Shown: piece after piece, positions 41,492 through 64,000 of the stretch
Position numbering within the stretch: the stretch's first letter is position 1
How the letters are laid out: every line of letters starts with the position of its first letter
Assembly (NCBI GenBank): GCA_013215295.1
Contig: JABSOZ010000007.1
Coordinates: 62,001 to 126,000 of the forward strand
Origin: Colwellia sp.
GTDB taxonomy: Bacteria; Pseudomonadota; Gammaproteobacteria; Enterobacterales; Alteromonadaceae
DNA: 64,000 bases
Reading direction: 5' to 3'
Notes under the pieces: model-generated
The model's input: only the letters and a program-made list of their open reading frames with translations
What the model was told of the DNA's origin: nothing
Databases searched by the model: none
Made by a program: the position numbers and the translations under genes

Positions 41492-41492
41492 A
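41477..41492. promoter_or_regulatory. Perfect 16-bp palindrome touching the hybrid kinase start codon
   Basis: TAAAGCGGCCGCTTTA is a perfect palindrome, GC-rich in an AT-rich setting; its last base is the first base of the ATG at 41492. No ribosome binding site is otherwise visible, so it could be an operator at the 5' end of the mRNA or an element that affects start-codon access. Confidence 0.5.
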
Positions 41493-45862: not shown

Positions 45863-45887
45863 CTCAATTGTTATTAAGGAGGATCTA

Positions 45888-46778
45888 TTGTCAGAAAAAT
45901 TGACCGAAGCAAGCCCCTTAATTACTAAGGAGAGTTTTAAAAATGTGATGAACAATATTGAAATTGTGGATTTTGAAATAAACTTATTGCTGCAAGCTAT
46001 TTTATTTCGTTACGGATATGACTTTCACCACTACGCCAGAGCGTCAATTACCAGACGTATTAATAACTGTATGCGTAAAACAGGTTTGAATAATATATCT
46101 GAGATGATTGCTAAAATTTTACATGAGGTTGATTTTTTTGAGCTGTTTTTAAAAGAAATGTCGGTAACCGTGACCGAAATGTTTCGTGATCCGAAGGTAT
46201 TCAATACGCTAAGACAACAAGTCTTTACCCAATTAAAAACCTATTCTCGAGTCAATATTTGGCATGCGGGTTGTGCTACGGGTGAGGAAGTTTATTCGGT
46301 TGCTATTATGCTCAAAGAAGAAGGTTTGTTATCGCGTTGCCGCATTTACGCCACTGATTTTAACAATCATTCTCTGGATATTGCCGAAAAAGCTATTTAT
46401 CCCGCAGAAAAAATGGCTGGATTTACCCATAACTATTTACTTTCTGGTGGTAAAGCCTCCTTTGCCGATTATTATCAAGCCAAACATCGGCACGCAAAAA
46501 TGCATTCTTCGCTAAAAGAACATATTACTTTTGCCAACCATAATTTAATGAAAGACCAAAGTTTTGCAAAAATGCACTTGATAATTTGTCGCAATGTCCT
46601 TATTTATTTTGACCAAGTATTACAGAATAAGGTGCTTAAAGTTTTTCAGCAAAGTTTGCTTCATCGAGGTTATTTATTATTAGGTGACAAGGAGTCATTA
46701 GACTTTAGTGGTCAAAGTAAAAATTTTCTTTGCATTGCTAAAAAAGAAAAAATTTATCAAAAGATAAATTATGATTAA
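45888..46778 (+). CDS. CheR-type protein-glutamate methyltransferase
   Basis: The 296-residue protein has the CheR N-terminal helical domain and a SAM-binding domain with HAGCATGEEVYSVAIM, IYATDFNNHSL and ICRNVLIYFD. I chose the TTG at 45888 because a perfect AAGGAGG lies 5 bp before it; an ATG at 45810 would add 26 residues that overlap the kinase end. It lies 25 bp after the hybrid kinase stop and overlaps the CheB gene by 8 bp. With no receptor gene here, its target may be the helical region of the hybrid kinase, by inference. Confidence 0.9.
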   Translation: MSEKLTEASPLITKESFKNVMNNIEIVDFEINLLLQAILFRYGYDFHHYARASITRRINNCMRKTGLNNISEMIAKILHEVDFFELFLKEMSVTVTEMFRDPKVFNTLRQQVFTQLKTYSRVNIWHAGCATGEEVYSVAIMLKEEGLLSRCRIYATDFNNHSLDIAEKAIYPAEKMAGFTHNYLLSGGKASFADYYQAKHRHAKMHSSLKEHITFANHNLMKDQSFAKMHLIICRNVLIYFDQVLQNKVLKVFQQSLLHRGYLLLGDKESLDFSGQSKNFLCIAKKEKIYQKINYD

Positions 46779-47412
46779 GCCAATGCTAACACTCCAGTCA
46801 AAAAAACAGGCGTATAGTGCTTTAGTTATCGGGGTGTCCGCAGGCGGTCTAGCTGCATTAGAACATTTATTACCACAACTACCTCAATGCTTTTCACTCG
46901 CAATTATTGTGTTACAACATAGAGGCGAAAATAGCGTAAAGTCGATTGATGATAGTGATGAAGACTTCTTGGTAGAATATTTTAAAGGTCGCTGCTCAAT
47001 GCCAGTATTTGCAGCAACCATGGGCGACAAGATCAAAGCAGGTCACATTTATATTGCCCCCGCCCAGTACCATTTATTAATAGAGCAGCAACAAACCTTC
47101 AGCTTTAGCTTAGAGCCTCCAGTAAATTATGCACTGCCTTCAATCGATGTATTATTTGAAAGTGCTAGTCATTGCTACAAAAATCAGCTAATTGGTCTTA
47201 TACTTACAGGGGCAATCAGTGACGGCAGTCAAGGATTAAAAATGATCAAAATAAATGGTGGTTTAACTATAGTACAAGAACCTAGTACCGCTGAGGCGAG
47301 TTTTATGCCAACAGCTGCCATCGCATCGCATAAGGTCGATCATATTTTACCCTTAAAAGACATCAGTACTTTTTTAATTAATTTAACCTTAAAGGATCAA
47401 GGGGATGATTGA
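46771..47412 (+). CDS. CheB-type methylesterase domain protein without receiver
   Basis: The 213-residue protein is only the CheB catalytic domain: the Ser in GVSAGGLAALE, the His in VLQHRGEN and the Asp in LTGAISDGSQGL form the triad. It lacks the regulatory receiver of chemotaxis CheB. It overlaps the cheR-type gene by 8 bp and the next gene by 8 bp, so translation is coupled. It probably reverses the adjacent CheR reaction or regulates the complex. Confidence 0.9.
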   Translation: MIKPMLTLQSKKQAYSALVIGVSAGGLAALEHLLPQLPQCFSLAIIVLQHRGENSVKSIDDSDEDFLVEYFKGRCSMPVFAATMGDKIKAGHIYIAPAQYHLLIEQQQTFSFSLEPPVNYALPSIDVLFESASHCYKNQLIGLILTGAISDGSQGLKMIKINGGLTIVQEPSTAEASFMPTAAIASHKVDHILPLKDISTFLINLTLKDQGDD

Positions 47413-48685
47413 TAAACCTAAAATACTCATTGTTGACGATGAGCCTAATAATCTGCGCGTTTTTGAGCGAACACTTGCCTTGCTTGACGTAGATATTGTA
47501 AAAGCTTTATCGGGGCAACAAGCGCTAGCTGTTGCTCATAAATATGATTTTGCCTTGATCTTAATGGATGTACAAATGCCTGGTATGGATGGCTTTGAAA
47601 CCGCAACCTTAATATTAGAACACCCCAAAACTAGCCATATCCCCGTTATCTTTATTACCGCCTTCGCCCGAGATGAAGCGTTTGAATTTACCGGTTATGC
47701 CAGTGGTGCGGTTGATTATTTGATTAAACCCATTAACGAAGAAATTGTCCGTAGTAAAGTATCGGTTTTTTTGAAATTGCATAAAGAAAAACAACTGTTA
47801 GATCAAGCCTGTAAAGTGCGAGAGCAAGCCGAAGCAGAATTAAGGGAGCATAAGGCCCATTTAGAGGAAACAGTAAAAGAACGTACAAAGGAGTTGCAAG
47901 AATCGATTGAGATATTGATGACAACACAAAAAAAACTGGTTGAGTCAGAAAAAATGGCCTCTCTTGGTCGTTTGGTCGCAGGGGTAGCACATGAGCTTAA
48001 TACACCTATTGGCATTTGTGTTACCGGAGCATCATTTTTACAGGAAAAGCTTGAGGTGTTAGCCCAACGTTATGAGGAAGGTGGGATGCGTAAAAAAGAT
48101 CTCGATGACTTCCTGCAAAGTGCGCCGAAATCGGCAGAAATAATTTTAGCTAATTTAAACCGCGCCGCCGAACAAATATCAAATTTCAAGTTGGTCGCGG
48201 TCGACCAAACTAGCGAACGTAAACGTGAAATCAATTTACTTGAATACACCCAAAAAGTCGTGCAAAGTCTTCAACCCGCTATTAAACGTGCCCACCATCA
48301 TATCGAAGTAACGGGAGAAACCAATATCACCATGAACACTATTCCTGGTGATATTTCACAAATTATCACCAATTTAGTGATGAACTCCATTCATCATGCT
48401 TATAGTGAAGAGCAAAAAGGTGCTATATTTCTCGATATTAAATCATCGAAAGGCAAAGTTATAATGAGCTACAGTGATGATGGTATTGGTATGGAGCAAG
48501 CCACAAAAAAAATGATTTTTGAGCCTTTTTTTACCACTAAACGCGGCACGGGTGGTAGTGGTCTAGGCATGTACATAGTGTATAACCTCATCACGCAAAG
48601 CCTTCATGGGGAAATAATCTGTATTAGTGAATTAGCACAAGGCACTCAATTTATCCTGACATTCCCAATTGAAATTCCTGAATAA
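47405..48685 (+). CDS. Response regulator-histidine kinase
   Basis: The 426-residue protein has an N-terminal receiver (residues 5-120, Asp in LILMDVQMPGMDGF), a coiled coil (about 135-180), a HisKA-like domain with His in VAGVAHELNTPIG near residue 197, and an HATPase domain with NLVMNSIHHA, YSDDGIGM and GSGLGMYIVYN. It has no membrane segment. The receiver could accept phosphate from the hybrid kinase upstream, placing this as a second kinase in the same cascade. Confidence 0.9.
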   Translation: MIDKPKILIVDDEPNNLRVFERTLALLDVDIVKALSGQQALAVAHKYDFALILMDVQMPGMDGFETATLILEHPKTSHIPVIFITAFARDEAFEFTGYASGAVDYLIKPINEEIVRSKVSVFLKLHKEKQLLDQACKVREQAEAELREHKAHLEETVKERTKELQESIEILMTTQKKLVESEKMASLGRLVAGVAHELNTPIGICVTGASFLQEKLEVLAQRYEEGGMRKKDLDDFLQSAPKSAEIILANLNRAAEQISNFKLVAVDQTSERKREINLLEYTQKVVQSLQPAIKRAHHHIEVTGETNITMNTIPGDISQIITNLVMNSIHHAYSEEQKGAIFLDIKSSKGKVIMSYSDDGIGMEQATKKMIFEPFFTTKRGTGGSGLGMYIVYNLITQSLHGEIICISELAQGTQFILTFPIEIPE

Positions 48686-50419: not shown

Positions 50420-50701
50420 AATATTCTTAATAATTTATTTGTGGGGGTATTCCAATTGTCTGAGTGCATTTAACCACAAGCTCAGGTAAAGAAGCAAAAA
50501 TATAGTCTTCATCAAAATATCTGATTTTTTATTACTTTAAATTTTGCGTTTTTGGCTGAACGATTGGCTGACTTGATTGGCATGCTCTCGAGTGTTTTTT
50601 ATAAAATCATGTGCCTATGCAGATAATTCAGGACTGAACTGTGCATGCAGAAAAGCTATCCACTTAGAGCAACCAACCATTAGATGTAGTGTTTAGAGTA
50701 T

Positions 50702-51489
50702 ATGAAACAAATGAAGTGGCAAAAAGGTTTTATTTGCCTAGGCTGTGACAATGACCATAGCTATGAAATTAAAAGTCGTCACTTATGCGAATGTGCGCAA
50801 TGTATAAAGCAAATCTCAGTCACAGGAGGCATAATGTTTCATGGTAGTCACGTCACCTTAATCCAGTGGTTTTGGGCTATCTATTTTCTTGGCTCAGATA
50901 AATGAAGTATATAGCACTGAGATTAAGTCAATTAATCGAAGTCAATTGGCGAATCGCGAGGCTGATTTCAAAGAAACTTAGAACGGCTACGGGCCATAGA
51001 GATAGTTTGTATCAATTGAGTTAGATGATGTACTTGTTGACGGAAGACAAAAAAGGTCGTGGTGCAGCGGGGAAAAAGAATGTACTAATCGCCTGTGAAA
51101 GTAAGGATAAAAAAGCAGGGTTCATCATAATGGCAGTAGTCGATAGTATTTGTCACTTTAGCGTAGATGAATTTGTCAAAAAACACTTAAAACGAGGTCA
51201 TAAAGTGCATTCTGATGCATTGCCCTCATTGAATGTAATTGACCAAATACAAAACTAGGAAGCTAGAGTAACCCCTAGTTATCTAGTTGATGAATGGCTA
51301 TCGTGGCCACATAACCATAGGCAATTTAAAACGTTTTTGTTAGGTACATTTCGTGGCATATCAGGAAAATACCTACAAGAATACTTAGGTGAGCTCTGTT
51401 ATCGGTTCAATCAGCAATTCATTGAGAAATATATACCTAACCGATTGTTAAGTTTAGTAATAATTCATGCAGCAGTAAAGTCTATCTAA
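50702..51489 (+). pseudogene. Degraded IS1595-family transposase
   Basis: Three pieces together span an IS1595 transposase. The first (50702-50905) is the zinc-ribbon start with WQKGFICLGC, CAQCIKQISVTGG and WFWAIYFLGSDK. The second, in another frame (51025-51258), holds the catalytic region GRGAAGKKNVLIACE and VHSDALPSLNV. After a stop at 51256 the same frame continues HNHRQFKTFLLGTFRGISGKYL and CYRFNQQF to a TAA at 51489. A frameshift and an internal stop make it inactive. Residue order agrees with the family throughout. Confidence 0.85.
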
Positions 51490-51627: not shown

Positions 51628-53316
51628 ATGGAAGAAGTTGATTACTCATTACCCGCAGGTACACTAATATCCGAATTTAGAATTATTGATATTCTAGGTG
51701 TCGGTGGCTTTGGCATTACTTATAAAGCTCAAGACACACGCTTAGATAGATTCGTAGCTATTAAAGAGTTTTTACCCGTCGAACTTGCTGCCAGAGGCTC
51801 CGATAATAAAACTGTGATGCCACGGACCAACGTGAAAGGTGATTATCAATATGGTTTATCAAAGTTTTTAGATGAAGCTAAAACATTAGCTAAATTTAAT
51901 CATCCAAACATTGTAAAGGTATTAACCTTCCTTAAAGAAAATGGTACTGCTTATTTAGTGATGGAGTTCGTAGAAGGTGAGGCATTAGATGCCCACCTTA
52001 AAAAAATACACTTTAACGGTAATATGGCAGAAAGTCGCATTCGTGAAATCATCGAGCCACTTTTAAAAGGTTTAGCACAAGTACACAAAACAGGATTACT
52101 GCACCGTGACATAAAGCCCGGTAATATTTACCTACAAAGTTCAAGTGATGCTTCTAACGAGCACGGTAATAACCCAATGCTGATAGATTTTGGAGCCGCT
52201 CGACAAAGCGTAGGTGAAAAATCTAAATCAATCAGTTCCATTATTAGCCAGGGTTATGCACCGCCAGAGCAATACACTACTCGAGGAAAACAAGGTGCCC
52301 ACACTGATATTTATGCCGTAGGCGCAGTTATGTACTACCTAGTAACAGGTGAAAAACCTATAGAAAGTACTGACAGACAACACGAAATCATGGACGAACT
52401 GCCAGACCCGCTCAAGCCAATAGAAAAAAACCGTAGCTATAGTAATGCGTTAATTAATGCTATTACCCAAGCCATGATCCTACGCGTAAGCAATCGTACT
52501 CCAAATGTAACTGTTTTACAGCAGATGTTAAGCGATAATACATGCAATAGTAACAATGAAAAAAACACTACTATAGAAAATGAACATCAATCACAAATTG
52601 ATGATAGTACGGTAAAAATTAAGGTCTCAAGTACATTTGAAAAGCAACAAGTAGTTGAGCCAGTTAAACCTAGTGTATTAATAGAGCCAGAAGCAGTTGA
52701 GTCGGTTAAACCTAGTGTATTAATAGAGGCAGAAGCAGTTGAGCCAGTTAAACCTAGTGTATTAATTGAGGCAGAAGTAGTTGAGCCAGTTAAACCTAGT
52801 GTATTAAAAGAGGCTGAAGCAGTTGAGCCAGTTAAACCTAGTGTATTAATTGAGGCAGAAGTAGTTGAGCCAGTTAAACCTAGTGTATTAATAGAGGCTG
52901 AAGCAGTTGAGTCGGCTAAACCTAGTGTATTAAAAGAGGCTGAAGCAGTTGAGCCAGTTAAACCTAGTGTATTAAAAAATCAGCAAATTAGTAAGGTATT
53001 TGAACTCAGTCATTTTAAAAAGCATATTAAAGAAGATGTAGTAGCTTATTCATTGGTTTTTATTGTTATTGTATTAGGTGTTATCGGTAAATTTCAATAT
53101 CAAACATACTTAAATGAACAAGAAGTAATTACCAAACACCAAAAAGTGCGAATGGAGCAACTTATTCGATCACAAAACAGAAAAGGAGATGAGTTATTAT
53201 GGGACCGAGCAGTAAGTACGGGATATGTGAGAATTTATAACGAATACTTAGTTGAATACCCTAGAGGAATTCATATTGAAGAAGTAAAAAAATGGCTTCT
53301 TGAAAATAAAAAATAA
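51628..53316 (+). CDS. Membrane serine/threonine protein kinase with tandem repeat linker
   Basis: The 562-residue protein has a Hanks-type kinase domain (residues 12-300) with glycine loop GVGGFG, Lys46 in AIKEF, HRDIKPGN with Asp161, DFG Asp187 and YAPPEQY. Residues 342-453 are eight 14-residue repeats of the type VEPVKPSVLIEAEA. One membrane segment follows (about 474-492), and the short C-terminal tail looks like the YNEYLVEYPRG motif seen near bacterial caspases. The kinase is thus cytoplasmic and the tail periplasmic. It heads the accessory envelope locus with a PP2C phosphatase and an FHA protein. Confidence 0.93.
   Translation: MEEVDYSLPAGTLISEFRIIDILGVGGFGITYKAQDTRLDRFVAIKEFLPVELAARGSDNKTVMPRTNVKGDYQYGLSKFLDEAKTLAKFNHPNIVKVLTFLKENGTAYLVMEFVEGEALDAHLKKIHFNGNMAESRIREIIEPLLKGLAQVHKTGLLHRDIKPGNIYLQSSSDASNEHGNNPMLIDFGAARQSVGEKSKSISSIISQGYAPPEQYTTRGKQGAHTDIYAVGAVMYYLVTGEKPIESTDRQHEIMDELPDPLKPIEKNRSYSNALINAITQAMILRVSNRTPNVTVLQQMLSDNTCNSNNEKNTTIENEHQSQIDDSTVKIKVSSTFEKQQVVEPVKPSVLIEPEAVESVKPSVLIEAEAVEPVKPSVLIEAEVVEPVKPSVLKEAEAVEPVKPSVLIEAEVVEPVKPSVLIEAEAVESAKPSVLKEAEAVEPVKPSVLKNQQISKVFELSHFKKHIKEDVVAYSLVFIVIVLGVIGKFQYQTYLNEQEVITKHQKVRMEQLIRSQNRKGDELLWDRAVSTGYVRIYNEYLVEYPRGIHIEEVKKWLLENKK
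52651..52986 (+). repeat. Eight 42-bp in-frame tandem repeats in the kinase gene
   Basis: Eight units of 42 bp encode 14 residues each (consensus AVEPVKPSVLIEAE). Two variants (starting AVE and VVE) partly alternate, which suggests expansion by duplication of larger blocks. Confidence 0.95.
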
Positions 53317-53467
53317 AAAGGACCCTTGTAATAGATTTTGTGTAAGGTATAGCTAACGGCACCTGTTTCTAATATTATATCTCCTATATCTTATCTCCAA
53401 GCTTAATGTCAGAGATAACCATGAGAATTACACGTAGCCAAGAACAATGGCAAAACATTATGATTTT

Positions 53468-54865
53468 TTATTTTACGGTTTCCAAAATCAAAACGGCTTC
53501 TGCAATATCTATTTTCACTTTTTCATTTTTAATTGTCTTTTGTTTCTTCCTGACTAAACCTCGTGTTTTGGTTACCGCTTTTTTACTGTTATTCTGTAAG
53601 CGATGATAAATGCCGTCATGCTCGGTACTTGGCAGTATGTCTAATAATTTTGTTGTAGACGCTATAAGTTGTAAGCTTTCTTGGCCAAAAGGAGATGTTA
53701 CATCGAACTCGCCAAATATTACCCAACGATTAATCTCGTCATAGCCCAAATATTTTATGAATTTATCACGAGTAGGCCTATCATTGAAGTCAAGTAGGTA
53801 ACTGATTTTACCTTCTGCATTATCTATATGGCCTGTAACGTAAAAGTAACTGGGTTTATTTACTTTTACCAGTAAAATTACCGTTTCAGAGCTGTTAAAT
53901 AGTACATTGCGGCTCCCTTTATTTGATGTGATTTTTACTTTGAAGTCTTGGTTTATTATTTTCCCATTTAAGAGCATTTGTTCAAAGTTGGAATCTTGAG
54001 GTGTATATTCGTCAACATTAAGTTTCGTCTTATCTAAATTTACCACCGCGGCATCAATGACATCGCCTTTGTTATTTATTAACTGACTTTCAATTTGTAA
54101 TACTTTCTCATTAATTCGGTATTTACCTACAAGCGTATAAAGAGCGTCGCTTTCATTATTTGTAGAGGCTATTTTTGCACTTATCGCTGTTAGTAAAGCA
54201 CTCGAAAAAGGTGTTGTGTCGTAGGAAAGGTAAGGGAGAAAAGGTTTTATTAATACTTTCTTCTGATTAATGTTTTTTGTTAATAATAATGCCGCCATAG
54301 AAATACTGTCTGCCGTTTTTTCTAAATGACTTAATTCCTCTCTAATTGTCACCGCAATTAGAGGGCTAGCTGGGATAGTAGCCTCGGGAGATAACATTTT
54401 TAATACTAAAGTTAATTGTTGTACCTCGTGGATCAATTTTAATAATGTCGTTAACTCATCATATTTGGTATGAGCTGAGCTAATGTTTTTAGTTTTATTC
54501 CAAGTACGGTCAATGAATTTCTGTTTTTCTTGAATTGCTGAAATATATAAAGGGCTGCTGAGCGATTTCTTTAATGAGGAGTCGCATTGAAAATACCCTG
54601 ACTTTTTATAACACTCAGTTTTATGACCTAATATAGGCAAAGAGGATGAAAGAGTACTTTTAGCTGTAAACATGTCAATGCCAGTGTTAGTTTGGTAGCT
54701 TTCACTGACACTTTCAACATTCACGTAAATATTTTGTTGCAGATCAGAAATCGCTTGTTCTTTGGCTGCATGCTTATTTTTATTCATCGCTTGGCCATCA
54801 AAATCTGCTGAAAAACATATACTAGATAAAGTGCAAAGGTAAATTAAAAAAAATATTTTATACAT
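53468..54865 (-). CDS. Secreted protein with LPP20-like and DUF4384-like regions
   Basis: The 465-residue protein has a signal peptide (cleavage after CFSA, about residue 19). Residues 30-100 read like an LPP20-type domain (KHAAKEQAISDLQQNIYVNV). The middle is helical. Residues 290-430 resemble DUF4384, with VILLVKVNKPSYFYVTGHI. DUF4384 proteins often occur with kinases and caspases in envelope loci. It is the only minus-strand gene between the kinase and phosphatase genes. No catalytic site is seen. A role as periplasmic partner of the kinase tail is only a guess. Confidence 0.65.
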   Translation of the reverse strand: MYKIFFLIYLCTLSSICFSADFDGQAMNKNKHAAKEQAISDLQQNIYVNVESVSESYQTNTGIDMFTAKSTLSSSLPILGHKTECYKKSGYFQCDSSLKKSLSSPLYISAIQEKQKFIDRTWNKTKNISSAHTKYDELTTLLKLIHEVQQLTLVLKMLSPEATIPASPLIAVTIREELSHLEKTADSISMAALLLTKNINQKKVLIKPFLPYLSYDTTPFSSALLTAISAKIASTNNESDALYTLVGKYRINEKVLQIESQLINNKGDVIDAAVVNLDKTKLNVDEYTPQDSNFEQMLLNGKIINQDFKVKITSNKGSRNVLFNSSETVILLVKVNKPSYFYVTGHIDNAEGKISYLLDFNDRPTRDKFIKYLGYDEINRWVIFGEFDVTSPFGQESLQLIASTTKLLDILPSTEHDGIYHRLQNNSKKAVTKTRGLVRKKQKTIKNEKVKIDIAEAVLILETVK

Positions 54866-55342
54866 TGTTATCTCGCTTTAGTAAATTTCACTCAGAATAG
54901 TAAATGAATCGATCCTACATTTCTATTTTTTGACAGAGGTTAATCGTTTTTAAATAGCCTTTGGTCACAAGAGCATAGTTATCATATAACAAAAGTTATA
55001 GGTGTGAAAATTATTTACTAATTATAGTAAACACTCACAATTAACGAAAAAGGCATGTTATGAGGAGAGCTTGAATACAACGAACAAAGATAAAGAAGTC
55101 GTTGGTTATTGTTATTGATCGAAACTTACATACATGCAAACGTGAGTGAATAGGCTCTAGAATATTACAATAAAAATTACAACCACAGCCCGAAGAGGGC
55201 AGAAATGATATAAAGGCTGGCTAAATGGTGGCAGCGAACTTCGCGTGCATCGGTGCAGCGTTATCTGTTTCAGTATCAGTATTGTCGTCTAATCTATAGT
55301 TGTAATATCGTCTTTTATCAGTGATTATAGAGTAAATAAAAA
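54866..55342. other. 477-bp divergent intergenic region
   Basis: No gene seen. The region lies between divergent genes and should carry promoters for the secreted protein (minus) and the phosphatase set (plus). Confidence 0.45.
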
Positions 55343-56152
55343 ATGTATTTTATAACTATGTTTAATAAAGTCTTATCAATAATTCAACGCTCTCCTGTTG
55401 CTCCTGAGCAATCATTGCTTTGTCAGCACACTATTATTGGCGATAGAAGCTGCAATGAAGATGCCCTTGGGTGTGTAACCGTAAAAACCAATGAAAAACA
55501 TGGCCATTTTTTAATTGTTTGTGATGGTATGGGCGGACATGTCGCAGGAGACATTACTGCTCAAACATTAGTTAAATGCTTTATTGAACAAGTCGGTAAA
55601 CTTAAAAATCCATTAACACTAACCGCTTTTCAAACGCTTTATAAAAAAAGTATTAGTGAAATGAAACAATATGTTAAAGAAAATCATGGTGAGGTAGACG
55701 GGCATACGACCTTGGCTTGTGCATGGATTGATGAAGAAAAAATTTTAACATTACATGTAGGTGATTCAAGAGTTTATCAGCTTGATAGTACACAAGTGAA
55801 ATTTCGAACACGGGATCATTCAGTGGTGCAAATGCTACTTGATGAAGGGGAAATTAGTGAAGAAGAAATGGGTACGCACCCCGAACAAAACAAGTTATTC
55901 AAAAGCATTGGTGTGTTAAATGAAGAATTAGACAAGCCCAGTATTAAACAATATTCACCTTTAACTGCAGGTGAAAGCATTCTAGTGTGCAGTGACGGCT
56001 TTTGGGAACACCTTAGTCAAAAAGAACTAGTAAAATTAAATAATAAATTTAGCCAAAAAAGTCTTGAAAAAAGTTGCGATATTAGCCAAATACGGGCGAA
56101 TGGGAAAAGCGATAATATTTCAGTCATTGTATTTAAACAGGGAAAATCCTAA
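55343..56152 (+). CDS. PP2C-type serine/threonine phosphatase
   Basis: The 269-residue protein carries the PP2C metal-site motifs in order: GDRSCNEDALG, CDGMGGHVAGD, LHVGDSRVYQL, CSDGFWEHL and KSDNISVIVF. It is soluble. It probably removes phosphate from substrates of the kinase at 51628. The start could also be the ATG at 55358. It is 19 bp before the caspase-FHA gene, so kinase antagonist and phospho-reader are co-expressed. Confidence 0.94.
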   Translation: MYFITMFNKVLSIIQRSPVAPEQSLLCQHTIIGDRSCNEDALGCVTVKTNEKHGHFLIVCDGMGGHVAGDITAQTLVKCFIEQVGKLKNPLTLTAFQTLYKKSISEMKQYVKENHGEVDGHTTLACAWIDEEKILTLHVGDSRVYQLDSTQVKFRTRDHSVVQMLLDEGEISEEEMGTHPEQNKLFKSIGVLNEELDKPSIKQYSPLTAGESILVCSDGFWEHLSQKELVKLNNKFSQKSLEKSCDISQIRANGKSDNISVIVFKQGKS

Positions 56153-56171
56153 CAGGATAAGTAATACTTAC

Positions 56172-57584
56172 ATGATCAAAATAACAGGGAAATATGGGAA
56201 GATTGAAAGAATATCAGTATTATTATTTGCGTTATTTATAATAATTGTTTTTTTATTGTCAGTTTACGGTTTTGAAAATAAAGAGCAAGAAAATACCAAA
56301 CCGAATGAAAACTTGGCTAAATTTGCATTTATAATAGGTAATCAAGATTATGTTGGTAGAGATGCAGATTTAAACAACCCGATTAATGATGTAAATGCCA
56401 TGGAGGAAAAGCTTCACGCTTTAGATTTTACAACAATAAAGCTTAAAAACAGTTTTAAACATCATTTTGATTTACGTTTTAAAGAATTTATTAAATTAGT
56501 ACGTAATAGTAAACGTGAAGGAAAACAGATTGTTACTCTTTTTTTCTATGCAGGTCACGGCATTCAGTTTGACAACATTAACTATATTGTTCCCGTAGAA
56601 ACTGAACTTTTTCAGCAATCTAATCCAATAACTTCACAAGACATTCGTCGTGAATTAATTTCTTTAAAAAAAGTAACCAATAAACTAGCTACACTTGACA
56701 GTATGATCAATATTGTAATACTTGATGCCTGCCGTAATTTACCAATCGAAGGTTTAGAAGCGCACTCTGGTGGTTGGGCCGACGTAGTACAAGCAGATTT
56801 TTTTGTGGCTTTTGGAACTGGGCCAGGTGCTGAAGCTGCTGATGGTAATGGTAGTAATGGTTTATTTACCTCGTCTATCATTCAATATATCGACACCAAA
56901 GGGCAATCACTTTCTCAGTTGTTTCAGCGAGTACGTAAAGACGTAATAGAGGCTAGTCATGGTGAACAGATACCCCAAGACTCAAACCGCGCTACGGTTG
57001 ACTTTTATTTTATACCAGGTAAAAAAACAAGTTACTTATGGCAACTTTTTTTAATTGCTTTTTTATTGGTAAGTAGCAGTGTTTGGTTTGTTTTTTATCA
57101 CAAAAAACAAAAAGTAGCTTGGGTTACTGGTATCGACTTAACATCACATATTATGAGAGATAAAGTACATGTTGAAGAAATGGTTTCTCGTTCTAGATTA
57201 CAAAAAAATATAACCGGTTATGTGAAAGACTTAAAACGTAAAAAAGTAATTTGTTTAATTTATGATAAAAAGCTGACGATAGGACGTGACCCTAGCTGCA
57301 ATATTCATTTACCTGACGACGAAAAATACGTCAGCCGTTTCCATTGTGATTTAGCTTGGGATAACGAAAAACAACGCTTTTGGTTAGAAGAGTCGTTAAA
57401 CAAACCAGCAGCAAACGGAACATACTCAGGTGCCCTTGCTGAAAAAGGAGAGGGAGGTGAATTTGGTGAGGGTAAAATAATACCAGGTCAACGTTATTAC
57501 TTAGAGCCAGGTGAAGTGTTTTATTTGGCGGATCCAAAAGAGAAGGGTTGGCCCATGACCATTATTAAACATAAAAGCAATTAA
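56172..57584 (+). CDS. Caspase-like (C14) protease with membrane segments and FHA domain
   Basis: The 470-residue protein has a membrane segment at about 16-37, a caspase-fold domain (about 48-270) with the dyad His129 in FYAGHGIQF and Cys187 in LDACRNLP, a second segment (about 283-303) and a C-terminal FHA domain (about 365-465) with TIGRDPSCNIHL and YVSRFHCDL. Positive residues flank both segments on the outer sides, so the caspase domain should face the periplasm and FHA the cytoplasm. I chose ATG 56172; a frame from 56064 only overlaps the phosphatase gene. FHA would read phospho-Thr set by the kinase. Confidence 0.9.
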   Translation: MIKITGKYGKIERISVLLFALFIIIVFLLSVYGFENKEQENTKPNENLAKFAFIIGNQDYVGRDADLNNPINDVNAMEEKLHALDFTTIKLKNSFKHHFDLRFKEFIKLVRNSKREGKQIVTLFFYAGHGIQFDNINYIVPVETELFQQSNPITSQDIRRELISLKKVTNKLATLDSMINIVILDACRNLPIEGLEAHSGGWADVVQADFFVAFGTGPGAEAADGNGSNGLFTSSIIQYIDTKGQSLSQLFQRVRKDVIEASHGEQIPQDSNRATVDFYFIPGKKTSYLWQLFLIAFLLVSSSVWFVFYHKKQKVAWVTGIDLTSHIMRDKVHVEEMVSRSRLQKNITGYVKDLKRKKVICLIYDKKLTIGRDPSCNIHLPDDEKYVSRFHCDLAWDNEKQRFWLEESLNKPAANGTYSGALAEKGEGGEFGEGKIIPGQRYYLEPGEVFYLADPKEKGWPMTIIKHKSN

Positions 57585-57614
57585 CAATGAGTACGTATAT
57601 AAGGATTATGTGAC

Positions 57615-58469
57615 ATGAAAATATCTATTTTTTTATCAACGTTAATCAGTATTGTGATGAGCTTTTTTATCGTATTAAATGCTTTTGCAGTCTGTAAACC
57701 ATTTAATAATAATGAATTAGCGTTAAATCTAACGCAGCGAATATACCAATTACAAGATACGGTAGACGATTGTGAGGATATACATACAATAATCCCCTTT
57801 GTTAAAGAACTTATTTCTCAAAATAAGTTTAGTCTAGTACAAAATTATTTGGCGATGGCTGTAGATTATGCAAATAATGATAGTCAAAAAATAACAGTTG
57901 CGGAGTTAAATGCAGAATTCTACCTAGCTCAGGGTAATGTTTGTCAAGTACATAAGTTGTTAAGTAAGAAAATTAAACAGCCTTACCAGAAAGAAGCCAA
58001 TGAAAGTATTGATTTATCATTAAGTGATTATATTCAAGTCCACGGTATTAATAGCGACACCTTAACGTGCATGCTTGAATCGAGTCGCTCTGTGTCGACT
58101 AGTCGTGGTTTAACACGAAGCAACGGTATTAATATGGCAATAAAGTTTAAAAAGAACAGTTCAGAATTAACAGAACAAGGGGTTAAACAAGTTACCGCAT
58201 TAAGTCATTCAATAAAAAGGCTAAATTTTGAACGTTTTAACATTAACTTTGTTGGGCATACTGATGTGCGAGGCGAAGCAAATTATAATTTAACTTTATC
58301 CAAAGCGAGGGCTTACTCTGTTTACAATGCCGTGATAAAGCAAGAACCTAGTTTGAAAGCATTATTAAACTATTCGGGTCAAGGTGAAGCGCAGCCTATA
58401 ACGCTAAATGACACAGAAAGTGCTCATAATACAAACCGTCGTGTAGAAATATTTTTGAGTAAAAAGTAG
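57615..58469 (+). CDS. OmpA-family C-terminal domain protein
   Basis: The 284-residue protein has a signal peptide (cleavage after AFA, about residue 26), a helical middle (residues 30-160) and an OmpA/MotB-type peptidoglycan-binding domain (about 170-284) with FVGHTDVRGEANYNLTLSKARA and NRRVEIFL. It is periplasmic and would anchor to the cell wall. It is 31 bp after the caspase-FHA gene on the same strand. It may localise or restrain the periplasmic caspase domain. Confidence 0.88.
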   Translation: MKISIFLSTLISIVMSFFIVLNAFAVCKPFNNNELALNLTQRIYQLQDTVDDCEDIHTIIPFVKELISQNKFSLVQNYLAMAVDYANNDSQKITVAELNAEFYLAQGNVCQVHKLLSKKIKQPYQKEANESIDLSLSDYIQVHGINSDTLTCMLESSRSVSTSRGLTRSNGINMAIKFKKNSSELTEQGVKQVTALSHSIKRLNFERFNINFVGHTDVRGEANYNLTLSKARAYSVYNAVIKQEPSLKALLNYSGQGEAQPITLNDTESAHNTNRRVEIFLSKK

Positions 58470-58617
58470 CTTTTTGAACGTTAAATCTAATGTTACTACT
58501 CAGACTATAAAATGGGATGAATTAATTGGGGGAATAAAAGGGGGGCGTTAAACAAGTCAATTAACGTATCAAGCCTATTAACGCTTTGTTTTTTCACCGT
58601 TAATAAATAATTTATTA
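58470..58617. other. Intergenic stretch after the OmpA-family gene
   Basis: No gene. A GGGGGAATAAAAGGGGGG tract (58527-58544 region) and AT-rich DNA precede the IS66 relic. Confidence 0.4.
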
Positions 58618-58870
58618 ACGAACAGAATATATCACCGCCGTTTGCTGAGCGAAAATATCTTGAAATATTTTATTTCAACTTGGTCATTCGAATATATCTT
58701 TCAACCAAGCTATTATCAAACGGTAACGAGAAGTTATACATAAAGGCGAGCAATTGGTTAAAGTCAGTGAGGATAGCTAGAATATTGGTACCATATTGTG
58801 CACCATTCAATATTATCAGGGAGCGTTGTTTTACTATTTTTTGATAGCATTCCTTTAATAGTTTTATCAC
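58618..58870 (-). pseudogene. IS66-family transposase C-terminal remnant
   Basis: The minus-strand frame reads LLAFMYNFSLPFDNSLVERYIRM then TKLK and a stop. In the same frame past the stop it continues NISRYFRSANGGDIFC. This is the well-known IS66 TnpC tail (PFDNN.aER..RM.K.KQKISG.FRS). The Gln codon of the KQK motif has become TAA. Only the last part of the transposase is left. Confidence 0.85.
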
Positions 58871-59192
58871 CTAATGTTGATTTATTAACGTTTGATCATC
58901 ATTTGATATTGATGGTTTGAGGCGCTTTATCATTCATACTGCTATAATAGAGCATCAAAAGGGTCAAGCAACTCGATTCTTCAATGTTTTGAAATAATTT
59001 AGTTTAGACTAAATAGTAACAATTATTTTTAAGTTTTCATAAATGAGCATTAACTACTTAGAACTAGCTAACCGTAATGTTATTTATTTTCAATGGTTTA
59101 TAAAAAAACAAAAAAATAAAAAATTATATTATTTACGCGACATAAATAGTACTTTATTTTTATAAAAACTTTAGTTTTAAAGGTCGTCATTA
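58871..59192. other. 322-bp AT-rich intergenic stretch
   Basis: Nothing coding was recognised. It probably includes the end of the IS66 relic and the promoter of the gene at 59193. Confidence 0.4.
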
Positions 59193-60062
59193 ATGATACA
59201 CAAGCTTCTTTTTTTTATTTTATTATTTACCAGCTTTATATCCATAAATATAAACGCAGAAGAAAATGAAACACTTAATCAAATAATTCATCAATTTAAA
59301 ATAGATGCAAATGAATTAAATGCTTTGTTAGCTACAGAAGTAAAATTAGAAAAACAAATGAGCACACTTCAGTTGCAAATCACAACGGCAGAATCAATGT
59401 TGGCTCAGTTAACAATTAAACAAAGAAAACTGAAGGATAAATTAAGTAATAATCCCAGCGAACTGGATATTGAATTCTTAAATTTGGATGAAGAGGTGGT
59501 TAATACTGATTTTACAAATACTCAAATTGAATTAGCTGAATATAAAAATGACCACAAAAGTATTGGTGAAAAACTTGCTCATTTAGTAACGAATTATAGA
59601 CAATTAGAAAATCATCAAATTAATAAAAGAAAAAATATAAAACTGTTAATTACTGATAAAAATATGTCTGTCGAAAGCGTCAACAGAAGTATAACTTACC
59701 CTTGTGAGATCGTTAGATTAAAAGAACAATGCAAATCTGAAGCTAAAAATATTTTGCTTAGAGAAATATCAGAGCAGTTTGCAGGCGTAGAGCTTCAATC
59801 TATAACTGAAATTGATAAATATTTATTAGTTAAAGACGAGGTCAATACCCAATCTAAAGTGATATTTAAGAGTGTTAACATTACTGAGCAGAAAATGATC
59901 GTTGTCGCTGGAAAAAGTCATTTAAAGCTAACTATTTCCGCTGAATTACAAAAAGAGATCACAGCTAAAGAGATTACTTTATTACATTTAAAAATCGATA
60001 CAGCGATGGATAAATATTTACAAGATAATACCCAATTTCATAAAAATAATAGCAGATATTAA
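59193..60062 (+). CDS. Secreted coiled-coil protein with an LPP20-like C-terminal region
   Basis: The 289-residue protein has a signal peptide (to about residue 22), a coiled coil (about residues 30-150), then a Cys pair near 171 and 178 (YPCEIVRLKEQCKSEAK). The C-terminal part (ILLREISEQFAGVELQSITEI onward) resembles LPP20/FlgO-like domains, in which a helix is followed by beta strands. I do not recognise a full-length family. It stands between the IS66 relic and the MltC-like gene, in the envelope locus. Confidence 0.6.
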   Translation: MIHKLLFFILLFTSFISININAEENETLNQIIHQFKIDANELNALLATEVKLEKQMSTLQLQITTAESMLAQLTIKQRKLKDKLSNNPSELDIEFLNLDEEVVNTDFTNTQIELAEYKNDHKSIGEKLAHLVTNYRQLENHQINKRKNIKLLITDKNMSVESVNRSITYPCEIVRLKEQCKSEAKNILLREISEQFAGVELQSITEIDKYLLVKDEVNTQSKVIFKSVNITEQKMIVVAGKSHLKLTISAELQKEITAKEITLLHLKIDTAMDKYLQDNTQFHKNNSRY

Positions 60063-60782
60063 TTAAAACGTTATCCCAATATAAAATATATTCTCTCCAT
60101 ATTTCAGCTTTTTAGACAAGCTGTAGTCAATTACAAAAGGTCTTATTATTGTCGATATCTATTTAAGGATTTTAGACATTTTTTGATTTAAAAGTCTTTT
60201 ATATATAGCAATAAATTTCCCAAAAAAAATCAGACCATGTCAACTCAGTTTTGTAAAGTGGCTAAACTTCACTTCGTGGAGGTTTAACTATTGGCTAACC
60301 CTTTTTGCACTTAGCGCTAATATTGCTTCAATAAATGGTCGAAAGTGACAGCTTCAGAAGTAACTAAATGATGTGTATTGTCCTGCAATATCAAACCTCC
60401 AGCTATGTGATTATGTCCCCTACAATCACCCATTTTATCATTGTTAAGTGTGTTTCTTAATAACTTCCCAACATCAATGTGAACAGATTATGGGTGGAGC
60501 GAGAATAAATATCCTGATTATAATTCATTGCAACTACTACTAATATCTCGAATTCGTTTACGTATAAAAGGAAGTCAGCCAATACACTTAATAATATTTT
60601 TCACAAGTTTTCTTCAATAAAACAGAAGCAATACCATAATTGCTTTTAATATCATCAAAAAGGTTTTGTAAGTACCTAATTCAATTTAATTTAAAGATTT
60701 TCTACAAATAGTTGTTAACTAAATCTAAATTCGCAATTTTATTAAAAACATTTTTGTAAAAAGTTATTTATATTGAACGTGA
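60063..60782. other. 720-bp intergenic region with a possible gene relic
   Basis: There is no intact gene. A minus-strand frame at 60317-60487 reads IDVGKLLRNTLNNDKMGDC followed by RGHNHIAGGLILQDN, which resembles the end of a DHH/DHHA1-type phosphoesterase domain. Upstream it is broken. The remainder is AT-rich. Confidence 0.45.
60317..60487 (-). pseudogene. Possible DHHA1-like gene fragment
   Basis: This 57-codon stretch has a VG.L.R pattern and a GHNHIAGG motif, like the GGH..AAG motif of DHHA1 domains. No start codon or N-terminal DHH motif is present. The match is weak and made by eye. Confidence 0.35.
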
Positions 60783-62189
60783 TCAAATTGAATCGACCGA
60801 CGCATAGATTTTTTTGCGTTTGATGACCCTTTTAACGTAATTTTTAGTTTCATTGTAAGGTAAATTTTCAACTAAATGGTTATAAACTTCTTTAGGGGAC
60901 AATGCATTAATTATCTTTGCGGCTTTATTTATATTACGAGAACCATCTGTATTGAACGTTTTTGCCACATTACCACTGCCAGTGTTATACGCAGCAATTA
61001 TGCAATACATACGACTCTCCGAATTAGTGATATTTTTTAGGTATCGAGAATTTAAAATATGCATGTATGCTACGCCTGTCTCAATATTATTTTCTGATTG
61101 AAATAAGTATGACTCAGTCATTGGCAGATCTTTTTTATAAAGAAATCTATTTACATCGATCCCCGCAGAACGAGGAACTATTTGCATTAAGCCAAAAGCA
61201 GGGATATGCGATTGTGCTTTTGGATTAAAATAACTCTCCGTATGAATTATAGCTAATAATAAACTTGGTGAAAGTCCCCATCTATTACCTTGGGCTTTAA
61301 CATGACCGATATAAGGTTTAGCTTTTACTAAGTCTTTTTTATTACCTAATGGCATAGTATAGGTCGTGATTTTCTTATTTTTTAATGCATCCCGCTTTAT
61401 ACTATTATTCAATTTAGTGGTATGCGTTTGTAAAGCTGTAATTCTTGTTTGTTTTTCTATTTCTATTTGTGCTTTTTCTTTTTTGATATTGTTTTCTGTT
61501 TCTTTAGCTAATTTATCAGAGTTAGGGGTATCGACATTTACTAAGTCATAGATTTTTTCAATTTGGGATTGCTGAGCTTGAGATTGTTCTTCAATTAACA
61601 TTATTTCTTTTGCTAATAGTGCTGCTTTATTTGTGATAAAGGCTGTTTTTTTATGAACAATTTTAGCCTTTTTGACTAAATACTCCGCTAAATTGTTAGT
61701 TAAGGGTTGGCCAATAACTTGTGAAAATGAAATATTACTTGATGTAGGTTCCGCCATTTTTGTTAAACTATCGATAACAAATAATTGGCTTATTTCTTCA
61801 TCATTACCATGTAGCATACTAATGCTTAATTCATTTTTTTCAAAATCTATAGTGGTTTTAGTTTTGTTATCTTTACTATATTGAACATACTTTGAAGGGG
61901 ATGAAGCATCTGATTCACCCCACAAGCTAATTAAATTATCTCGAATATCATCAACTCGCTTAAAATGTTCTTTTCTAAAATTTTGATATTCATAAAGATA
62001 CTCAGATTTCCATTGCTGAAACTCCCTAATATCTGAAGGACTTCCTTCATTATTCAGTGACTTGATCTCTTTATCTAATTCCGCAAAAGGGTCTTCACTA
62101 AGAGGACTCTCTTGAGCAAAAGTCACATTACTGTTGATTAGCATAAGTATAAATACAGTAATTGAAATTGATAAAAAATTCATAAACAA
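60783..62189 (-). CDS. MltC-like membrane-associated lytic murein transglycosylase
   Basis: The 468-residue protein has a signal peptide (to about residue 25), a DUF3393-like N-terminal domain as in MltC (LISLWGESDASSPSKYVQY), a long coiled coil (about 195-265) and a C-terminal SLT lysozyme-like domain with catalytic Glu318 in IIHTESYF, AFGLMQIVP and AAYNTGSGNVAK. E. coli MltC is shorter (about 360), and the extra length is the coiled coil. It lacks a lipobox Cys. It cleaves peptidoglycan and starts 9 bp downstream of the ETEC_3214-like gene. Confidence 0.87.
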   Translation of the reverse strand: MFMNFLSISITVFILMLINSNVTFAQESPLSEDPFAELDKEIKSLNNEGSPSDIREFQQWKSEYLYEYQNFRKEHFKRVDDIRDNLISLWGESDASSPSKYVQYSKDNKTKTTIDFEKNELSISMLHGNDEEISQLFVIDSLTKMAEPTSSNISFSQVIGQPLTNNLAEYLVKKAKIVHKKTAFITNKAALLAKEIMLIEEQSQAQQSQIEKIYDLVNVDTPNSDKLAKETENNIKKEKAQIEIEKQTRITALQTHTTKLNNSIKRDALKNKKITTYTMPLGNKKDLVKAKPYIGHVKAQGNRWGLSPSLLLAIIHTESYFNPKAQSHIPAFGLMQIVPRSAGIDVNRFLYKKDLPMTESYLFQSENNIETGVAYMHILNSRYLKNITNSESRMYCIIAAYNTGSGNVAKTFNTDGSRNINKAAKIINALSPKEVYNHLVENLPYNETKNYVKRVIKRKKIYASVDSI

Positions 62190-62198
62190 TCCTTTAAA

Positions 62199-62999
62199 TT
62201 AGCTTTTTGTGAATATTTTATATTCATAACGTGTTAGTAATGCTTCAGCAATAATGACAGGTTCAAGTTCTGTTATCGCATAATAATTTGGGTAAATAGC
62301 ATTGCGAACATCATTTAATACGATAGATATCTCTTCTTCATTGTCAGAAAAAGTTACTTTTTCATCTAATTTTTCAATAAAAGATACTATCGATTTTTTA
62401 TAATCAGGTTTTATATTTTTATCTGAGGGAGTAGCACCATATTCAACATACCCTCTCATTAAGGTTAAAAACATCTGTTCTTTACCCAAGTCTTGAGATT
62501 CTATGTAATAAATAAGATTACCAATATCATAACTATAAACACCTTGATTTTTATGCGCATTATTTATATTTAATGAGCCTAGATTTTCAGAAAAAGGAAC
62601 TTTAGGAGTAAAGTCGTTTTTCTGCGTAAATACGCTATAGCCTACTATACGGCTATCTGATGAGATTAAAGTTAGGTTGAATTTACCTTCGTTGTAATAT
62701 TGAAATAAAACACTAGGGTTAATTTTAGAACGCTTAATTACACTAGGTTCACCAACTATCGATTTTACATAATCAATACTATTACCTATATGTATATTAT
62801 CAAGAATTTCATATTGCAAGCTATGGGTGAAGTTCTCAATAACCGCTTCATAAGAACTGGTGATAATATCTTTAGTATCACTCCATTGTCCTGCTGATAT
62901 CATTAAAGCAGCAATCATCCATATAGTATTTTGAACCTTTTTCCACGTAGAGGTTTCTTCTACTTTCTTTTCTACTTCACCTAACGTTGAAGGTTCCAT
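62199..62999 (-). CDS. ETEC_3214-like membrane protein of unknown function
   Basis: The 266-residue protein has a short cytoplasmic start, one membrane segment (about residues 23-40) and an outside domain with HIGNSIDYVKSIVGEP and a YYNEGKFNLTLI strand, a pattern I associate with ETEC_3214-domain proteins. No catalytic site is evident. It lies between the LPP20 lipoprotein gene (74 bp upstream) and the MltC-like gene (9 bp downstream), so the three may be one transcript. Confidence 0.55.
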   Translation of the reverse strand: MEPSTLGEVEKKVEETSTWKKVQNTIWMIAALMISAGQWSDTKDIITSSYEAVIENFTHSLQYEILDNIHIGNSIDYVKSIVGEPSVIKRSKINPSVLFQYYNEGKFNLTLISSDSRIVGYSVFTQKNDFTPKVPFSENLGSLNINNAHKNQGVYSYDIGNLIYYIESQDLGKEQMFLTLMRGYVEYGATPSDKNIKPDYKKSIVSFIEKLDEKVTFSDNEEEISIVLNDVRNAIYPNYYAITELEPVIIAEALLTRYEYKIFTKS

Positions 63000-63073
63000 C
63001 GTAGTTGTCCTTTACTTGATTTCTAGAGTACAAAAAAAGGAGTTATAATTAAGCTCCTTTTTCTCTTTTCTAA

Positions 63074-63655
63074 TTAATCCTTAGTTAGCCTTTTGATTTC
63101 ATTATCTAAGTTTATCTCTGCTTTATGGGCTTTAAACTCTTGATATAGGAACTTTTCATCTTGTGGATTTACTAAACGTTGACTTTGTTTTATGATCGCT
63201 TCAAAAAGATTTGTTGTAGCTTTTGGGCTTAACGTTGTTAATACACAAAAATATTCTTTACCCGATATAGTTACAATATCTGACCTTACTACACGAGAAC
63301 CACGAAGTTCTTGTTTAGTCAGTTGCTTAGAAACAGATGAAAATTTATTACCAACGGTCATATCATTATTATCATCAACTCTATTTGAATATGTTTTATC
63401 CAAACCTTCAACTTTTACATCTATTTGCTGAGCAAGTGATAAGCGACTATTCGCTGTTGCCATCTTTTTATCAATTGAAAAATTACCAGAAGATTTAACA
63501 CAGTCTGTTGCCGCAATTCCGTCTTTAGCTACAGGATTAAGCACCCAAGACGGTAAGTTTGAAATAGAAGTTATTCCGTCTGTTTTCTTCGTTGAACCAC
63601 ATGCTGATACTGTTGTTGCAATTAATGCAGCTAAAATTATTTTTTGTGTTTTCAT
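63074..63655 (-). CDS. LPP20-family lipoprotein
   Basis: The 193-residue product starts with a lipoprotein signal (MKTQKIILAALIATTVSAC, lipobox VSAC). I chose the Met at 63655 because an upstream start at 63691 would put twelve extra residues before the signal. The body (ATANSRLSLAQQIDVKVEG and later FCVLTTLSPKATTNLFEA) fits the LPP20 domain. It leads a minus-strand set with the ETEC_3214-like and MltC-like genes. Its place in the outer membrane is inferred. Confidence 0.82.
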   Translation of the reverse strand: MKTQKIILAALIATTVSACGSTKKTDGITSISNLPSWVLNPVAKDGIAATDCVKSSGNFSIDKKMATANSRLSLAQQIDVKVEGLDKTYSNRVDDNNDMTVGNKFSSVSKQLTKQELRGSRVVRSDIVTISGKEYFCVLTTLSPKATTNLFEAIIKQSQRLVNPQDEKFLYQEFKAHKAEINLDNEIKRLTKD

Positions 63656-64000
63656 AACGTATATCCCTAGTTTGATATGTCTAATAACCATGTAAATATA
63701 AAAAACTTAAATTTTAATTCGTAACTATTTTAAGCAATAAATTTTGCAATAATTATAGTTAAAACTGGCCTACTATTTAGATGACGATTACTCATCATTA
63801 ATAAAAATAGCTCGTGATTAACTTCCTTGCTTGGCCAACTCAGTAAGCTCATCTTTAATAGCATATTTCACCACACTACTAAAGTTCAATTTTATGATAA
63901 AGCAATAAAAATGCTAATCTATTACGTTTATCAGTATCGCAAGAAGAATAAAAGTTTATACAGTAATAGCAAAAAATTAGTGTATTTCAAATCAATGGGA
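63656..64000. other. Right-end stretch without a supported gene
   Basis: No intact frame is convincing. A short minus-strand stretch near 63815-63890 reads FSSVVKYAIKDELTELAKQGS before a stop, but it is too short to name. Confidence 0.4.

Follow-up and report, generated by a model that had tools for sequence, protein, structure and literature searches.

The DNA analyzed here, referred to as the window, is a stretch of 64,000 nucleotides from Colwellia sp. (contig JABSOZ010000007.1), in which a segment of about 12 kb was found to contain two gene units, not one. Unit 1 (51628-58469) encodes a membrane Ser/Thr kinase, a PP2C phosphatase, a protein combining a caspase (C14) domain, a transmembrane (TM) segment and an FHA domain (caspase-TM-FHA), a secreted-looking DUF4384-type protein, and an OmpA-type protein. 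Unit 2 (60783-63691), on the opposite strand, comprises LPP20-like, ETEC_3214-domain and MltC-like genes. In unit 1, the membrane kinase and the phosphatase probably control a caspase-like protease located outside the inner membrane, and the chances are about even that the unit works as a proteolytic switch from inside to outside. What was directly observed is the gene set, together with its recurrence in other genomes and the conservation of its motifs.

Family typing with Pfam covered nine cluster proteins and ten flanking proteins. The features of unit 1 are as follows:

51628-53316, plus strand: membrane Ser/Thr kinase (Pkinase, 1.7e-39)
52649-52975, plus strand: 42-bp tandem repeat within the kinase gene, 7.8 copies (Tandem Repeats Finder, 90% matches)
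53468-54865, minus strand: secreted-looking protein with a C-terminal DUF4384-type domain (DUF4384, 1.6e-4, and family alignment; hydrophobic N-terminus 4-22)
55343-56152, plus strand: PP2C phosphatase (PP2C_2, 1.3e-13)
56172-57584, plus strand: caspase (C14)-TM-FHA protein (Peptidase_C14, 3.4e-36; FHA, 5.6e-8)
57615-58469, plus strand: OmpA-type protein (OmpA, 4e-12; hydrophobic segment 3-21)

The start of the caspase-TM-FHA gene was taken as the ATG at 56172 because it directly follows the PP2C stop at 56152 (the mechanical open reading frame (ORF) begins at 56064). The original prediction had listed a kinase, a PP2C phosphatase, a caspase-FHA protein, an OmpA protein, an MltC-like transglycosylase and several LPP20-like proteins within about 12 kb. 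Domain matches bore out this list except for the last item, of which only one protein (63074-63691) remains, since two other candidates scored low by hhalign against the LPP20 profile. The DUF4384-type protein, a member of unit 1 whose gene lies between those for the kinase and PP2C, was absent from that list.

The caspase-TM-FHA protein contains a metacaspase domain (Peptidase_C14, 125.5 bits, cut-off 21.4), with the His/Cys dyad in YAGHG and DACR, and an FHA domain (33.5 bits, cut-off 20.7) with GRD, SRFH and NGT. GR, S..H and NGT are the residues by which FHA domains contact phospho-threonine, and the kinase, PP2C, caspase and FHA motifs are read here in their generally accepted functional meaning. 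Among four aligned caspase-TM-FHA proteins, including that of the window, His129, Cys187, Arg372, His391 and Asn415 were invariant, and Ser388 was present in three. TM-like segments were found at 14-32 and 289-307 of the window protein. A hydrophobic N-terminus precedes the caspase domain in all four proteins; judged by eye, it is signal peptide-like in some and anchor-like in the window protein. A second hydrophobic segment precedes the FHA domain in three of the four at the threshold used, that of the protein from genome G836 falling below it, and the protein from genome G050 has an extra hydrophobic stretch (173-191) within its caspase domain. Hydropathy and charge suggest that the caspase domain is periplasmic and the FHA domain cytoplasmic. 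The nearest solved structure to the caspase-FHA profile was MALT1 (4.1e-19).

VAIK, HRD and DFG were present in the kinase, together with a TM-like segment at 471-489. Its predicted layout is an N-terminal kinase domain, a repeat linker, one TM segment and a short tail, with the 42-bp repeat lying in the linker that joins the kinase domain to the membrane segment. A pattern scan of kinase tails for a common repeat gave no match. The PP2C protein contains all of the motifs DGMGG, GDSR, SDG and GKSDN and scored 155.5 bits against NCBIfam Stp1, below the 230-bit cut-off. The PP2C query matched 38 of 147 family genomes. Neighbors within about 1.4 kb were read at 29 of the 43 places outside the window's own genome, and a kinase match was present at 11 of these 29 loci.

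The original prediction had raised the question of whether these genes co-occur elsewhere or never do so; unit 1 was found to recur, whole or altered, in three other genomes. In a Colwellia metagenome-assembled genome (MAG; G1076, JAPYOP010000050.1, locus L044), genes for PP2C, caspase-FHA, DUF4384 and OmpA proteins with 63, 66, 48 and 46% identity to those of the window, respectively, are contiguous, and relative to this gene order the DUF4384 gene of the window is inverted. L044 was taken as the locus of G1076 and L045 as that of G050, as the matches agree. A 78-residue kinase remnant ends just before the PP2C gene of the MAG, with a run of N further upstream. A second kinase of the MAG, its reading frame broken in the assembly, has 90.7% identity over a length of 215 residues. 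Its C-terminal region is LPP20-like (hhalign probability 76, E 2.3e-5), and next to it lies a gene that is LPP20-like as well. The MAG also encodes, at L140:8476-11310, a protein whose kinase domain shares 79% identity with the window kinase and which in addition contains an FGE domain and two stretches matching PG_binding_1; as judged by eye, a TM segment lies between these parts.

The same caspase-TM-FHA architecture was found in two more distant genomes, G836 and G050. The G836 cluster (L071:3-19401, about 19 kb) contains two kinases, PP2C, FGE, caspase-TM-FHA, SLT and DUF4384 proteins and an ECF-like sigma gene, together with one further FHA protein and another with a sub-threshold FHA-like match. 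In G050, a 5.6-kb contig carries the caspase-FHA gene together with four homologs of G836 genes, and a separate 6.9-kb contig carries SLT, DUF4384, PP2C and kinase genes. G836 and G050 also share four proteins without a known family, all of them membrane proteins or secreted-looking. Two G836 proteins were considered as MotA/MotB-like and rejected, no such Pfam or NCBIfam match being found, and one G836 membrane protein had no match on plasmids. With the motifs present and the set recurring in three other genomes, the earlier view of kinase, PP2C and FHA as the write, erase and read parts of a phospho-threonine unit, accompanied by an OmpA-type wall binder, was upheld.

The DUF4384-type protein was named on the basis of the family alignment despite a DUF4384 score of 22.1 bits, below the Pfam cut-off of 27 bits. 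Three long relatives scored 16.1, 25.5 and 20.5 bits, and the shorter DUF4384 proteins of G836 and G050 exceeded the cut-off (58.7 and 35.2 bits). Members of the long family (window, L044, L072 and L096) show 34-48% identity to the window copy. Long DUF4384 genes were matched in two of 39 genomes of the genus of the Colwellia MAG (G1076 and G1082) and in four of 170 family genomes (own, G861, G783 and G020); the profile for the latter search was built with the G861 and G1082 sequences included. The full-length DUF4384 genes found without a protease query had a secreted-looking protease nearby in three of three cases: a trypsin-like protease adjoins in G1082, a CHAT-TPR protein adjoins in G020, and a CHAT-TPR protein is encoded on the same strand with one gene intervening in G783. 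The CHAT His and Cys motifs were present in these CHAT proteins. G861, where DUF4384 is paired with a caspase-FGE protein, and the Colwellia MAG were left out of this count, as caspase or FHA queries had led to both; the count becomes three of four once a partial relative in G020 is included. Given an assumed rate of 1 in 100 loci, the chance of two caspase/CHAT neighbors in three is about 3e-4. The protein encoded by 53468-54865 is a putative protease partner or substrate. It had no match on plasmids, and its family had no match to solved structures up to E 1; assignment of the family to the LPP20-like proteins was rejected (hhalign probability 0.25 against the LPP20 profile). G1082 also encodes a caspase that looks secreted, with matches to DUF3859 in the stretches after it (L097:7694-9829).

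In the proposed mechanism, in which topology, switching, substrates and output are predicted, the membrane kinase, which the cell envelope would tune, would phosphorylate either its own threonines or those of the caspase-FHA linker. Phospho-threonine would then be bound by the FHA domain on the cytoplasmic side, and this binding would cluster caspase-FHA molecules in the inner membrane, turning on the periplasmic caspase domain, which would then cleave one or more envelope proteins. MALT1 is a paracaspase activated by dimerization, and its place as the nearest solved relative, though a distant one, suggests activation of the dimerization type. The DUF4384 protein would likely be a substrate, co-factor or inhibitor of the caspase. 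The OmpA-type protein, which to judge from its domain probably binds peptidoglycan, would anchor the device to the wall, and PP2C would provide the reset. The output would probably be envelope remodeling or controlled envelope damage under stress. We propose only tentatively that these proteins form a new class of transmembrane caspases, in which cytoplasmic reading of phospho-threonine by FHA switches a periplasmic protease and whose dedicated secreted DUF4384 partner also serves CHAT and trypsin-like periplasmic proteases of related bacteria.

Several points weigh against this mechanism. The caspase-TM-FHA protein was found in only three other genomes, and the cluster of the Colwellia MAG has no more than a kinase remnant, downstream of the N run in the assembly, so that the kinase may act from elsewhere, may be dispensable, or the assembly may be wrong. 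None of the 29 PP2C-relative loci had a caspase, DUF4384 or OmpA match within about 1.4 kb, and PP2C alone is therefore no predictor of unit 1. The action of the kinase on the FHA domain of the caspase protein is suggested by adjacency only, and activation by dimerization is carried over from a distant relative. Furthermore, the partial DUF4384 relative in G020, which consists of the N-terminal part with PEGA, has no adjoining protease, and the structure models of the caspase-FHA and DUF4384 proteins were too weak for use (mean predicted local distance difference test scores, pLDDT, of 52.7 and 42.2).

The second unit consists of three genes:

63074-63691, minus strand: LPP20-like lipoprotein, first gene of the trio (LPP20, 3.9e-4; 21.2 bits, below the 25.9-bit cut-off)
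62199-62999, minus strand: ETEC_3214-domain protein, second gene of the trio (NF043066, 157.6 bits, above the cut-off of 35)
60783-62189, minus strand: MltC-like SLT lytic transglycosylase, third gene of the trio (SLT, 7e-25; Mltc_N, 1.6e-5)

The LPP20-like protein aligns to six relatives with 26-69% identity. The MltC-like protein passed the Pfam SLT and MltC N-terminal models and scored 171.4 bits against the NCBIfam MltC equivalog, below the cut-off of 375. Of 59 relatives, 4 carried ETEC_3214, as did 4 of 7 chosen genomes, G836, G861 and G050 not among them. Order and strand of the trio are kept in G020, in G1082 and in the Colwellia MAG, where the SLT gene is cut by the contig end. On two Pseudoalteromonas plasmids, the ETEC_3214 and SLT genes are adjacent; an LPP20-like gene follows this pair on one plasmid and precedes it on the other.

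The trio is a conserved separate envelope operon, and the single system including the MltC-like and LPP20 proteins that had been proposed earlier was accordingly given up. If all nine genes formed one device, the MltC-like, ETEC_3214 and LPP20 proteins would be downstream effectors of the kinase; adjacency speaks for this, as do the SLT genes that G836 and G050 have in their systems and the near-identical Colwellia MAG kinase, which bears an LPP20-like region and lies beside an LPP20-like gene. Nevertheless, the trio is on the opposite strand and occurs apart from unit 1. In G020, where it is present, caspase queries gave no match, and in G1082 the caspase domain was matched only without the FHA part; in both genomes a DUF4384 relative lies elsewhere. 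In the Colwellia MAG, the trio is on a different contig from the caspase-TM-FHA unit, and on the two plasmids unit 1 was not near it (the chromosomes of these strains lay outside the search). Moreover, the SLT protein of the window is only weakly similar to its counterparts in G836 and G050 (8.5e-6 and 8.5e-7), which are strongly similar to each other (1.3e-79). The nine-gene device was rejected on the separate occurrence of the trio, and we consider it unlikely.

One gene between the two units was typed, and one relic and one possible fragment of insertion sequences (IS) were identified:

50690-51489, plus strand: decayed IS1595-family transposase relic at the left edge (Zn_ribbon_IS1595, 6.6e-8; DDE_Tnp_IS1595, 7e-7 and 7.8e-6, the last just under the cut-off)
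58670-58867, minus strand: possible IS66 transposase fragment (DDE_Tnp_IS66, 1.6e-4; 21.6 bits, below the 23.1-bit cut-off)
59193-60062, plus strand: unrecognized secreted-looking protein (no Pfam family over cut-off; hydrophobic N-terminus 2-20)

Membership of 59193-60062 in unit 1 is doubtful, and no counterpart was found in the Colwellia MAG cluster (L044); its assignment as LPP20-like was rejected (hhalign probability 0.32 against the LPP20 family profile). IS relics had been reported at both the edge and the middle of the segment. The one at the edge stood, with three IS1595 pieces, and the one in the middle comes down to a single weak IS66 piece. Left of unit 1, at 41492-48685, a hybrid histidine kinase, a CheR methyltransferase, a 213-aa ORF and a response-regulator kinase are encoded consecutively and are apparently unrelated.

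The caspase-TM-FHA unit is uncommon. In searches whose genome draws overlap, the caspase-FHA query matched 4 of 59 relatives, with the matches in own and G050 extending into the FHA part. In the family it matched 19 of 395 genomes, of which own, G1076 and G836 reached that part, and it matched 14 of 369 class genomes and 57 of 349 phylum genomes, the own genome alone reaching the FHA part in both. Queried by itself, the FHA part matched 8 of 394 order genomes, own and G050 along its length and the other six across no more than 28-54 residues. Among the three genomes of the G836 genus, caspase-FHA was found in G836 itself alone. At most four candidates per genome were scored in the 395-genome family and 349-genome phylum searches, so that genomes rich in caspases may hold a caspase-FHA gene that was missed. 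A pattern scan of 84,980 species genomes yielded 26 stretches and two confirmed loci, a count that is a floor because the patterns were narrow.

In five same-genus genomes, the caspase and DUF4384 queries had no match. The block of the Colwellia MAG sits between a purC-like gene and maf, surrounded by housekeeping-looking genes, whereas rne, pseudouridine synthase-like and HAD-like genes were found at the equivalent position of the window genome (names given by eye in both). These differing flanks place unit 1 at different chromosomal sites. The earlier suggestion of an accessory island, with unit 1 as accessory and movable, is supported. Plasmid searches matched the kinase in 678 records and the caspase in 262, with no single place covering 80% of the kinase or caspase-FHA query. 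A phage search with the caspase-FHA protein gave no match, and three viral-contig loci matched the caspase domain only. Unrelated accessory genes brought together by chance around old IS copies would fit the IS1595 relic, the weak IS66 relic and the zero of five same-genus genomes. Such an origin is very improbable, being already contradicted by conserved gene order: four genes are contiguous at a different site in a second genome, and caspase-FHA, kinase, PP2C and DUF4384 genes occur together in two more.

Two further functions were weighed against the proteolytic switch proposed for unit 1. In a plain envelope stress sensor, the caspase would activate or degrade a regulator, with no lysis or death, and the DUF4384 and OmpA proteins would be structural. 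The genes around unit 1 are mostly signaling and housekeeping, and the G836 cluster includes the ECF-like sigma gene (below curated cut-offs), with a related gene piece in G050, but the compact cluster showed no sigma gene; we regard this function as possible, if somewhat doubtful. In anti-phage abortive infection, suggested earlier as a suicide device, phage damage would trigger the kinase and the caspase would destroy the envelope. PADLOC models did match several cluster proteins, namely the kinase (mad6, 1e-49, residues 10-509; PD-T4-6, 3.7e-49, residues 11-331; either may reflect the family itself or the kinase fold), PP2C (PDC-M21C, 1.1e-14), the caspase (2.7e-7) and OmpA (ZorB, 1.6e-13). 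In the flanks, a helicase matched DpdE (1924 bits), exonuclease I matched the RT-associated SbcB (4.1e-46), and weak SduA and mad8 matches were seen; sporadic distribution and the IS relic also agree with defense. However, the matches among the 19 proteins scanned were to single genes or generic domains, and no complete defense system was recognized. The kinase scored 145.7 bits against NCBIfam MAD6 (cut-off 460), and the matches among the ten flanking proteins are single genes, two of them of housekeeping type (exonuclease and RadA-like). The Colwellia MAG copy lies among housekeeping-looking genes, and neither a plasmid place covering 80% of caspase-FHA nor a phage match was found. Support for an anti-phage function is weak and generic, and we judge it improbable. 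The SNF2-type helicase of the right flank (L031:5485-8811) matches DpdE over nearly its whole length and is perhaps a generic helicase; one further right-flank gene scanned gave no match.

What is new in unit 1 is the combination, as its individual parts are known. In the type VI secretion system (T6SS), the threonine phosphorylation pathway uses PpkA, PppA and Fha as kinase, PP2C and FHA, that is, the same write, erase and read parts; in the window, FHA is fused to a caspase. The T6SS FHA model (TIGR03354, TagH-type) scored 26.2 bits, below its cut-off of 120.25, and no T6SS structural genes were found among the nine cluster and ten flanking proteins. MALT1, the closest solved relative of the caspase domain, differs from the window protein, which is bacterial, membrane-bound and joined to FHA. 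The window protein shares the C14 domain and His/Cys dyad with metacaspases and orthocaspases and differs from them by a TM segment followed by a C-terminal FHA domain, with a kinase and PP2C alongside. In the available text of one survey, TM helices are given for 104 of 671 metacaspases, with no location assignable for 529 of 671, and OmpA is placed in 14 of 217 predicted metacaspase operons; that text, figures and tables aside, makes no mention of FHA or PP2C (PMC3501461). Two reports describe DUF4384 in orthocaspases and also, together with kinases, in further proteins (PMC6426788, PMC8283722). Some MoxR-vWA ternary conflict systems contain caspase, FHA, kinase, PP2C and OmpA, as far as the available text of PMC7159879 and PMC8195603 describes them; unlike these systems, the 19 typed proteins include no MoxR or vWA protein. 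The ETEC_3214 protein of Escherichia coli, of unknown function, is placed on a type II secretion system (T2SS)/SslE island in the available text of PMC5554520, whereas the family member at 62199-62999 lies between LPP20-like and SLT genes.

A literature search, with subscription papers mostly outside its reach, yielded no description of a caspase-TM-FHA protein with a kinase and PP2C. Likewise, among the papers listed on periplasmic or secreted caspases none dealt with bacterial caspases, as judged by title and the start of the abstract, none was found on CHAT/caspase/DUF4384/FHA neighborhoods, and the only paper linking LPP20 with kinases concerned brown algae. Bacterial caspases are discussed, in the available parts of two reports, mainly as effectors of cell death or immunity tied to NTPase systems (PMC7159879, PMC8195603). 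If the proposed mechanism is true, a caspase placed across the membrane from a phospho-reading domain would be a simple device for passing a signal from inside to outside, and Hanks-type kinase signaling would be joined to envelope proteolysis. In addition, the neighborhood pattern of DUF4384 would give a testable role, that of a protease partner, to an unnamed domain known in caspase and kinase proteins.

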